This document shows positions 1,260-44,436 of a DNA stretch of 64,000 nucleotides, one piece after another (position 1 is the stretch's first letter; each line of letters begins with the position of its first letter). A program made the translations under genes and the position numbers. Source of the stretch: Hanstruepera flava. Its GTDB lineage: Bacteria > Bacteroidota > Bacteroidia > Flavobacteriales > Flavobacteriaceae. Under the pieces are notes generated by a model. It saw nothing but the letters and a program-made list of their open reading frames with translations. It did no database searches and was not told the origin of the DNA. Location: the NCBI RefSeq assembly GCF_023634025.1, contig NZ_JALJCW010000001.1:781501-845500 (forward strand). Direction: 5' to 3'.

Positions 1260-1649
1260 TTACTTCTTTTTCAATTCTTTTTTAATGACATTTTTAGCGT
1301 CTTTTGCATTTGATAATTCAGCATACTCTAAAGCGGTATGACCTTTATCGCATTTAGTCTTTAAGTTCGCTCCGTTGTCAATTAAAACGACCAACACATC
1401 AGTTCTGTTATACTTGGCTGCATACATAGCTGGTGTCAAGCCATTCCATTTTTCGTTTACGTCGGCTCCTAATTCAATTAATTTTTGAACGGTTTCAACG
1501 TCTCCTTTCACAATAGACATGTGAAAAGGGCTTTTTTCTTTAACTGCAGTTTCTATTGCACTGTTCGTAAGTTCATTTACATTTTCTGCATTAATAGCTG
1601 TAAAAGAACAACTTAATGCAATTGCTGAAAGAATGATTGTTTTTTTCAT
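1260..1649 (-). CDS. Exported ankyrin-repeat protein
   Basis: The 129-residue protein starts with a typical Sec signal peptide (KK, hydrophobic core ILSAIALSCSF, AINAEN cleavage region near residue 21). The rest is two to three ankyrin repeats: SPFHMSIVKGDVETVQKLIELGADVN (about 40-65), then GLTPAMYAAKYNRTDVLVVLIDNGAN, then a degenerate last repeat GHTALEYAELSNAKDA. A lysine-rich tail ends the chain. Ankyrin repeats bind proteins, so a periplasmic binding role is an inference; the partner is unknown. It is monocistronic, with a terminator after it and a good ECF-type promoter about 45 bases ahead of its ATG, which suggests induction by an envelope or stress signal. Confidence 0.85.
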   Translation of the reverse strand: MKKTIILSAIALSCSFTAINAENVNELTNSAIETAVKEKSPFHMSIVKGDVETVQKLIELGADVNEKWNGLTPAMYAAKYNRTDVLVVLIDNGANLKTKCDKGHTALEYAELSNAKDAKNVIKKELKKK

Positions 1650-1694: not shown

Positions 1695-1721
1695 AGACGA
1701 CATAAAAATGAAACTGTTACA
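1695..1721 (-). promoter_or_regulatory. ECF-sigma-type promoter (TGTAAC-N16-CGTCT)
   Basis: On the minus strand TGTAAC (1721-1716), 16 bases, then CGTCT (1699-1695), upstream of the ankyrin gene. An AAC core in the -35 and CGTC in the -10 at 16-17 bases spacing are hallmarks of group-IV (ECF) sigma promoters. The same arrangement, with identical spacing, is found at 26568-26594. Confidence 0.6.
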
Positions 1722-25804: not shown

Positions 25805-26065
25805 TTAAAAAAAGTAGATAAACACACTTATAACCAATATCATTAACATTCCAAAAACAATCAAAATCCTTGTTCGCTTTTGTTTGTTTTCATGTTTTAA
25901 ACGTAATCGTATTTTTTCTAAATCCGCTTCTGTAGCTGAATTTTTAAATTCGAGTTTACTTCTACTTCTTCCAGATAATGTGTTTTGCAATTTGTCTCTA
26001 TGAGACATTAAACTCTTATTATTCTTTATTGCTGTTATAGCAGATTGTACTACTCCAAAACTCAT
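25805..26065 (-). CDS. Small tail-anchored membrane protein
   Basis: An 86-residue protein beginning MSFGVVQSAITAIKNNK. It has a very basic middle (RDKLQNTLSGRSRSK; then KIRLRLKHENKQKRTR) and one C-terminal hydrophobic helix (about 66-86) running to the last residue. I recall similar small MSFG-type proteins across Flavobacteriia, all without assigned function. The layout suggests a cytoplasmic, possibly nucleic-acid- or lipid-touching domain anchored by its tail. A weak ECF-like site lies about 150 bases upstream. Beyond that I cannot assign a role. Confidence 0.7.
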   Translation of the reverse strand: MSFGVVQSAITAIKNNKSLMSHRDKLQNTLSGRSRSKLEFKNSATEADLEKIRLRLKHENKQKRTRILIVFGMLMILVISVFIYFF

Positions 26066-26213: not shown

Positions 26214-26240
26214 AGTAGTAAAATCTTACAAAATGTTACA
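26214..26240 (-). promoter_or_regulatory. Possible ECF-type -35 with a degenerate -10
   Basis: Minus-strand TGTAAC (26240-26235) is embedded in ctgtaacatttt, a 12-base exact match to the site at 26584-26595. After 16 bases comes CTACT rather than CGTCT (two mismatches). It lies about 150 bases ahead of the 86-residue gene. Confidence 0.3.
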
Positions 26241-26278: not shown

Positions 26279-26533
26279 TTAAAAAAGAAAGAAGAATAAC
26301 CCCAAAAAAGCTGAAACCCTAATAGCGAATTCAACACCAGAATTCGTGTTAAACAAATAGCTTTTTGCTAATTGCTTCTTACCAAAAATAGAATTAGAAT
26401 CCAGGTTATCGTAATTGTGTACTGCAGCCATTTTATAATTAGAAATCAAAATCCCTGAAGGTTTATCTAAAATTGTTTTAGTTTCATCTAAAAGAAGGGA
26501 TTCAGGTTCCTGTTGTGTGGTTATAGTATTCAT
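26279..26533 (-). CDS. Hypothetical small protein with C-terminal membrane segment
   Basis: An 84-residue protein I do not recognise. The N-terminal 65 residues are polar (TTQQEPESLLLDETKTIL, then NYDNLDSNSIFGKKQLAKSY), and the last 18 are hydrophobic and end in FFFLF, consistent with a tail anchor. Coding is supported by its own start, the absence of a better frame, and a well-formed ECF-type promoter about 35 bases ahead of the ATG. It could be an envelope-stress protein; this is inference from the promoter alone. Confidence 0.5.
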   Translation of the reverse strand: MNTITTQQEPESLLLDETKTILDKPSGILISNYKMAAVHNYDNLDSNSIFGKKQLAKSYLFNTNSGVEFAIRVSAFLGLFFFLF

Positions 26534-26567
26534 AATAAGTATTATTTTTTGATTGATTGTACTATAT

Positions 26568-26594
26568 AGACGAGCAATTCGAAAAAATGTTACA
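26568..26594 (-). promoter_or_regulatory. ECF-sigma-type promoter (TGTAAC-N16-CGTCT)
   Basis: Minus-strand TGTAAC (26594-26589), 16 bases, then CGTCT (26572-26568) followed by ATATAG, 35 bases before the ATG of the 84-residue gene. It has the same two boxes and the same spacing as the site at 1695-1721. Confidence 0.6.
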
Positions 26595-43572: not shown

Positions 43573-44436
43573 ATGAGACAACTTAAAATTACCAAGCAGG
43601 TTACCAATAGAGAAACTGCTTCGTTAGATAAATATCTACAAGAAATAGGAAAAGTTGACTTAATTACCGCAGACGAAGAAGTAGAATTAGCACAGCGCAT
43701 CAAAGCTGGAGACCAGATAGCTTTAGAAAAGCTTACGAAGGCTAATTTACGTTTCGTAGTTTCGGTAGCAAAGCAATATCAAAACCAAGGTTTAACATTA
43801 CCAGACTTAATTAACGAAGGTAATTTAGGCTTAATCAAAGCTGCGCAACGTTTTGATGAAACACGTGGTTTTAAATTCATATCGTATGCTGTTTGGTGGA
43901 TTCGTCAATCTATCTTACAGGCTTTGGCAGAACAATCGCGTATTGTGCGTTTGCCATTAAACAAAATTGGTTCTATTAATAAAATCAATAAAACCTTTGC
44001 TTTTTTAGAGCAAGCACATGAGCGTCCGCCAAGTGCTGAAGAGATTGCCAAAGAATTGGATATGACCATTAACGATGTTAAGGAGTCTATGAAAAATTCT
44101 GGACGTCACGTTAGTATGGATGCACCTTTAGTAGAAGGTGAAGATTCTAACTTATATGATGTATTAAACTCTGGTGAATCGCCAAATCCGGATAAAGATT
44201 TATTACACGAGTCTTTACGTACTGAAATTGAGCGTGCACTAGAAACCTTAACACCTCGTGAAGCAGATGTTATTCGCTTGTATTTTGGGTTAGGAAACCA
44301 ACACCCAATGACATTGGAAGAAATAGGCGAAACATTCGATTTAACCCGTGAGCGTGTTAGACAGATTAAAGAAAAAGCGATTCGTAGATTAAAACATACG
44401 TCTCGAAGTAAAATATTGAAAACATATTTAGGTTAG
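43573..44436 (+). CDS. rpoD: Primary sigma factor RpoD/SigA
   Basis: A 287-residue sigma-70 primary factor in the short Bacteroidota form without region 1.1. Region 1.2 is [25 protein letters not shown]; region 2 holds [56 protein letters not shown] (read in pieces), with the -10-reading helix; region 3 covers about 150-190; region 4 ends in [36 protein letters not shown], the -35-reading helix-turn-helix. It directs transcription from TAnnTTTG promoters such as those seen through this window. Confidence 0.97.

Follow-up and report, generated by a model that had tools for sequence, protein, structure and literature searches.

A conserved TGTAAC-N16-CGTC promoter motif and its candidate ECF sigma factor in Hanstruepera flava and related Flavobacteriaceae

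Described ECF systems and two sites in Hanstruepera flava

Sigma-W of Bacillus subtilis is an ECF sigma factor whose regulon comprises many membrane proteins encoded at scattered loci, and AAC and CGTC are the cores of ECF (group IV) promoters. The phylum of Hanstruepera flava includes Porphyromonas gingivalis as a distant member. In Flavobacterium psychrophilum, promoter mapping has defined a class, SM6, whose CGT -10 box was assigned to ECF sigma factors (PMC9723704). The genes of this class in the printed selection include an ECF/anti-sigma operon (ECF THC0290_1774), an ABC ATPase and a rhodanese-related protein, together with gldN, porU and two Band-7 proteins; the regulon is induced in low-nutrient conditions, and the share of each of the seven F. 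psychrophilum ECFs in it was left open by the authors (PMC9723704). In P. gingivalis, PG_0214-0218 and PG_0985-0987 are described as operons of an ECF, a hypothetical protein and DUF4252, and expression of both is raised in the PG_0686 mutant FLL361, still more strongly under peroxide (PMC10101095). The EcfO-Reo system of Bacteroides and Phocaeicola is reported to combine an ECF with an adjacent anti-sigma, to be induced by envelope insults and to have surface proteins of unknown function in its regulon; Reo is described as a large anti-sigma that reaches the outer membrane (PMC9308784, PMC13114119).

We have analysed a 64-kb stretch (C1:781501-845500, here called the window) of the genome of H. 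flava, which comprises 3.09 Mb in 23 contigs. An initial annotation had pointed to one motif present twice on the minus strand with the same spacing, 35-46 bases ahead of start codons, and had considered this unlikely to arise by chance. The positions are exact (Table 1), the sites reading TGTAACATTTTTTCGAATTGCTCGTCT (26594..26568) and TGTAACAGTTTCATTTTTATGTCGTCT (1721..1695) on the minus strand, and from the end of CGTC to the ATG there are 35 bases at the 84-aa gene and 46 bases at the ankyrin gene. The two sites are the only exact matches to TGTAAC-N16-CGTCT in the window, where a mean of 0.03 is expected, and none of 100 dinucleotide-preserving shuffles contained two, which bears out the statement on chance. 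Both have the make-up of ECF-type promoters: they are bipartite, with an AAC-type -35, a CGT-type -10, a spacer in the range of 16-17 and a position near a start codon. They are almost certainly real ECF promoters.

Table 1. Predicted promoters, related elements and genes in the window
Feature	Position	Strand	Remarks
Predicted ECF-type promoter of the 84-aa gene	26568..26594	minus	-35 TGTAAC 26594..26589, 16-bp spacer, -10 CGTC(T) 26572..26568; exact match
84-aa protein, predicted target gene	26279..26533	minus	one hydrophobic segment, C-terminal by eye
Variant element TGTAAC-N16-CTAC(T), upstream of the 86-aa gene	26214..26240	minus	shares a 12-base word with the site at 26568-26594
86-aa protein	25805..26065	minus	C-terminal hydrophobic stretch; follows the variant element
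Predicted ECF-type promoter of the ankyrin gene	1695..1721	minus	TGTAAC 1721..1716, CGTC(T) 1699..1695; exact match
129-aa ankyrin protein, predicted target gene	1260..1649	minus	ankyrin repeats, Ank_2 E 1.1e-15; hydrophobic signal-like N-terminus

In the whole genome, TGTAAC-N16-CGTCT occurs four times and TGTAAC-N16-CGTC nine times, and neither reversed pattern occurs at all. A scan of spacers from 8 to 24 gave 47 matches, nine of them at 16 and seven at 17, with 31 spread over the remaining 15 spacings. The initial annotation had set the frequency of the motif upstream of genes against that in coding DNA, and the motif withstands this comparison: all nine N16 sites lie outside ORFs of at least 50 aa, and of the 29 distinct sites with any spacing but 16 or 17, such ORFs contain 27, the other two being intergenic (three identical N20 sites were collapsed into one, which reduces the 31 matches to 29). 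At eight of the nine N16 sites, CGTC ends 18-55 bp ahead of the start codon (one TTG) of an ORF of at least 50 aa. The ninth (L013, C4:69363-69388) lies 38 bp before a 28-aa ORF and overlaps a small antisense ORF when ORFs as short as 35 aa are counted; downstream of it, the 28-aa ORF and a 43-aa ORF after it each have a ATCAATCAAA-like leader. The site also precedes an ExbD-like gene, with an Hsp20 gene in divergent orientation. Three of the seven N17 sites are classed as intergenic. The one in front of a second ECF gene (L032) is classed as inside an ORF because the predicted ORF there begins further upstream, and the N17 sites away from that locus are mostly inside genes.

The strength of the motif does not extend to its weaker forms, and this is what an explanation by chance similarity or local sequence bias can draw on. 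With up to two mismatches, the window holds 16 matches vs 10.5 expected, a number reached in 5 of 100 shuffles. Genome-wide, TGTAAC-N15-TCGTC with at most one mismatch occurs 41 times, exactly as often as its reversed form, and a scan with CNNC as the -10 gave 53 vs 46 reversed, with nine matches for CGTC and six for CTAC, the latter without visible excess. Because the counts are near chance in both window and genome and the excess resides in exact sites only, weak matches mean little alone, and the 41 vs 41 result led us to leave the relaxed motif out of any extension of the regulon. Of these 41 matches, 32 are not N16-CGTC, and six of the 32 are intergenic; three are plausible by context, namely those in front of a third ECF gene (L082, at 34 bp), an ABC ATPase gene (L087, at 39 bp) and a gene for a DUF456-like protein (L076, at 17 bp, with CGAC as -10). 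For the exact sites, the expectation of 0.03 in the window, the count of nine vs none in the genome and the retention of the sites before orthologues in many genera render chance an extremely improbable explanation.

A sigma gene preceded by the same motif

The idea that an ECF sigma gene might itself be preceded by the motif proved right, in that one of the nine N16 sites lies in front of a gene for a 175-aa ECF sigma factor outside the window (C2:509289-509813). The protein matches Sigma70_r2 (E 1.5e-11) and Sigma70_r4_2 (E 1.3e-15) and has no match to region 1.2 or 3; regions 2 and 4 alone and a size of about 170-200 aa characterize the ECF (group IV) sigma factors. Next in the operon come a gene for a protein of 154 aa that has one hydrophobic segment and then three DUF4252 genes, the first of which (L091:4780-5628) encodes a type IX secretion C-terminal sorting domain (PF18962, E 9.5e-16), and a divergent S41 peptidase gene lies upstream. 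The order of sigma, small protein and DUF4252 is that described for the P. gingivalis operons, to which the locus is likened by gene order alone (PMC10101095). The 154-aa, anti-sigma-like protein matched no Pfam family over the cut-off, and its weak structural model (pLDDT 61.6) gave no significant match in a search of PDB structures. A further sigma factor, of 287 aa and with regions 1.2, 2, 3 and 4, is encoded in the window itself (43573-44436, plus strand) and is probably the primary sigma.

The genome has 19 sigma-region-2 genes; an exact N16 site lies within 500 bp upstream of C2:509289 and of none of the other 18, one of which has an N17 site. The exact site recurs upstream of sigma orthologues in 29 of 29 parsed loci (30 loci, one unparsed), and the consensus of the sites before sigma orthologues is TGTAACAAAA-N11-TCGTCGTAAT. 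In the best 80 of 568 sigma loci, which come from Olleya, Bizionia, Lacinutrix, Psychroserpens, Algibacter and other genera as well as metagenome bins, exact TGTAAC-N16-CGTC is found within 300 bp upstream of the sigma gene in 78, and the other two have one-base variants. Elsewhere in the same 80 loci (1.46 Mb, both strands), there are no N16 sites and six sites at all other spacings together. The gene arrangement is kept as well: all 80 have an ORF of 145-188 aa with one hydrophobic segment overlapping the end of the sigma gene, all 80 have a DUF4252 match and 79 have an S41 peptidase. On sequence grounds, the sigma is predicted to be autoregulated from its own promoter type. In an ECF sigma with an adjacent, here putative, anti-sigma, in a presumed envelope signal and in targets without known function, the system would resemble EcfO-Reo, which was rejected as the same system on anti-sigma size, the partner in the present loci measuring 145-188 aa (PMC9308784, PMC13114119).

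The sequences could in principle be binding sites of an ordinary DNA-binding regulator and not promoters, and the fact that two half-sites alone are fixed would be compatible with this. Such a reading is very unlikely, given that the motif is not palindromic, is oriented, has its halves 16 bp apart, lies shortly before start codons and precedes an ECF operon itself, and that its AAC and CGTC cores are ECF-like. The assignment of the CGT -10 box of F. psychrophilum to ECF sigma factors also speaks against it (PMC9723704). The strongest evidence for the reading as ECF promoters is the conservation of the sites at orthologous genes.

The motif and the sigma also occur together across genomes. Relatives of the sigma (E 1e-30 or better) are present in 86 of 149 genomes; 77 of the 86 belong, own included, to the family of H. 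flava, which has 90 genomes in the set. These 77 contain 743 sites vs 250 of the reversed pattern (2.78 vs 0.93 sites/Mb), with an excess in 71 and no excess in six. In the 13 family genomes without a sigma match, there are 20 sites vs 26 reversed (0.68 vs 0.89 sites/Mb); five of the 13 show a slight excess, and the five that are at least 2.2 Mb in size have 17 vs 18 reversed. In other families of the order, 50 genomes without a sigma match contain 55 sites vs 115 reversed, and outside the family the link is seen neither with a 49-57% relative of the sigma (n=4; 10 vs 7) nor with a 35-39% relative (n=5; 13 vs 24). These counts control for genome size and relatedness only in part, many of the sigma-lacking genomes being small and relatedness uncorrected, so that the co-occurrence is supportive, not decisive. 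What the sequences show as such is the motif with its spacing and positions, its conservation, its presence in front of the sigma gene and this co-occurrence.

Genes downstream of the sites

The 84-aa protein has no Pfam match at E 0.1. Its family was found in 20 of 149 genomes, own included (E 0.001 search), with 26-39% identity to relatives in other genera, and exact TGTAAC-N16-CGTC precedes the gene in all 20 loci, own included, even in the two (L176, L182) that lack a tblastn match. All 20 genomes also carry the C2:509289 sigma. In H. flava the gene follows trkH (Pfam TrkH), as it does by eye in several relatives, and its mRNA could alternatively arise from trkH by read-through. In some relatives, e.g. 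at L182, it is found beside other genes with the site still present, so the site travels with the gene. For the ankyrin gene, a search of 99 genomes at E 1e-20 gave 30 orthologue loci, own included, of which 20 have the exact site, six a site with one mismatch and four none; L201 and L212, both counted within the 30, are one and the same gene. Five of the six one-mismatch loci (L200, L206, L208, L209, L210) have TGAAAC-N16-CGTC instead of TGTAAC, a possible lineage shift of the -35.

Conservation is also seen beyond the promoter, in the leaders that follow CGTC (26534-26567 on the minus strand of the window, and in the loci of relatives). The leader contains TATAACCAATTAAA in most 84-aa genes and CTTTAGTATATCAAAAA in most ankyrin genes.

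A third, weaker relative of the motif had been proposed at 26214-26240; it lies upstream of the neighbouring 86-aa gene. The shared 12-base word is indeed present; the element is not the same promoter, its -10 being CTAC and not CGTC, and it was rejected as a member of the regulon and kept as a separate variant element (Table 1). A CTAC element occurs downstream of the 84-aa gene in five of 20 loci (own, three of four congeners and one other genus), and 13 of the 20 have no TGTAAC-N16-CTAC, the remaining two being unparsed. It is a conserved element and possibly a promoter for a related sigma, and membership of the 86-aa gene in the regulon is doubtful.

The nine sites of H. flava are followed by genes for a CPBP/Rce1-like membrane protein, a DUF4870 protein, an ABC-transporter ATPase, the ankyrin protein, the 84-aa protein, the ECF sigma, a DoxX-like protein and a lipoprotein-like protein of at least 490 aa (truncated at the end of the stretch), and by the 28-aa ORF. 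Four of the nine have a strong hydrophobic segment, and the genome taken by itself shows no excess of membrane proteins. A second set consists of 60 N16 stretches from six relatives (G021, G038, G040, G048, G063 and G086) among the matches listed, from which the known sigma, 84-aa and ankyrin sites were left out, except for one ankyrin site of G063 that stayed. At 42 of the 60, an ATG ORF of at least 35 aa begins within 250 bp, some of these ORFs being cut by the end of the stretch, and 29 of the 42 have a strong hydrophobic segment, vs 26 of 64 window ORFs of unmatched length. Some of the relatives' sites will be chance matches, as in the sigma-bearing family genomes the reversed control gives one third as many (250 vs 743). 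Recurrent families in the six relatives are DUF4870 (6), Pmp3/YqaE (5) and DUF456 (4); six further families occur as pairs, including rhodanese and DUF4386 proteins, and single CPBP, ABC ATPase and ankyrin proteins match targets of H. flava, the ABC match being unspecific.

The initial annotation had envisaged an ECF regulon of small envelope proteins and had asked whether matches to the motif gather at exported or membrane proteins. We retain the ECF regulon; a gathering at membrane proteins is suggested by the six relatives and is not seen in H. flava alone, and the ABC ATPase, the lipoprotein-like protein and the sigma operon show that small or envelope proteins make up only part of the targets. 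The recurrence of Pmp3, DUF4870, DUF456 and CPBP among the targets suggests membrane homeostasis, and the regulon may well serve membrane or envelope homeostasis. Scattered membrane-protein targets of one ECF recall Sigma-W of B. subtilis, as an analogy only. The likeness to SM6 comprises a CGT-type -10 (CGTC here by construction of the motif) and an ECF/anti-sigma operon, an ABC ATPase and a rhodanese-related protein at sites in H. flava or its relatives (PMC9723704). Unlike in the printed SM6 selection, the T9SS genes gldN and porU and Band-7 genes are not found immediately downstream of the nine exact sites (PMC9723704).

Spacer length and the proposed circuit

A second ECF gene, C2:132391, and the divergent gene of a DUF6249 protein are each preceded by TGTAAC-N17-CGTC (C2:132220-132320, L092). 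Both N17 sites have a C after TGTAAC (TGTAACC), where the two N16 sites of the window read TGTAACA, and both recur in G038, that is, in two genomes in all. This sister ECF likewise has no match in the 13 family genomes that lack the sigma, and with the same half-sites at 17 bp and the same absences it could share targets. The promoters may then be real and read mainly by another ECF, above all C2:132391 with its 137-aa partner, or by several ECFs. TGCAAC-N16-CGTC lies 34 bp ahead of the start of a third ECF, C2:194126, and the authors of the F. psychrophilum map allow that the CGT-box motif may serve several ECFs (PMC9723704). The sister's sites are nevertheless set apart from those of the window by both spacer and flanking base, and it is the C2:509289 sigma that has the exact N16 site in front of it in 78 of the best 80 of 568 loci. 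With a 60-aa fragment of the third ECF as the query, relatives were found in G006 and G035, both without a C2:509289 match. The motif is not in excess over its reversed form in G006 (2 vs 8) and is in excess in G035 (6 vs 2), which makes this a weak argument against the third ECF. Taken together, reading mainly by another ECF is unlikely, and the sites are very likely read by the sigma of the DUF4252 operon.

The two loci suggest that spacer length separates two sister regulons, on the basis of two genomes. We tentatively extend this to the Flavobacteriaceae, which might have two sister ECF regulons with the same half-sites, split solely by TGTAACA with 16 bp for the DUF4252-operon sigma and TGTAACC with 17 bp for the DUF6249-linked sigma. 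The first of these would be a conserved, hitherto unassigned membrane-homeostasis set that includes the 84-aa family, Pmp3, DUF4870 and DUF456.

In the circuit that we propose, the putative anti-sigma would retain the sigma at the inner membrane, and an envelope signal would set it free. The released sigma would bind TGTAACA at the -35 and CGTC at the -10, 16 bp apart. It would drive its own operon, with the sigma, the one-transmembrane anti-sigma and the three DUF4252 proteins, from the same type of site, and would turn on dispersed genes, many of them for membrane or exported proteins, including the 84-aa and ankyrin proteins. The start of transcription at the sites, its dependence on the sigma, the action of the anti-sigma and envelope stress as the signal are what we infer. 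The explanation as a whole, in which both sites of the window are promoters of the C2:509289 ECF sigma with an autoregulated operon and dispersed targets, appears likely.

This kind of system is known. In the literature searched, we found no description of TGTAAC-N16-CGTC, which the supplementary tables on SM6 may contain, and neither the assignment of the sigma to the motif nor the target list nor the difference in spacer; the occurrences of TGTAAC with Bacteroidetes in the passages retrieved were only CRISPR repeats or primers and were set aside. In conclusion, a precise motif, a likely sigma and a conserved target list can now be named for a type of regulon whose reader ECF was left open by the F. 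psychrophilum map. They would provide a shared regulatory context for families without known function, namely the 84-aa family, DUF4252, DUF4870 and DUF456.
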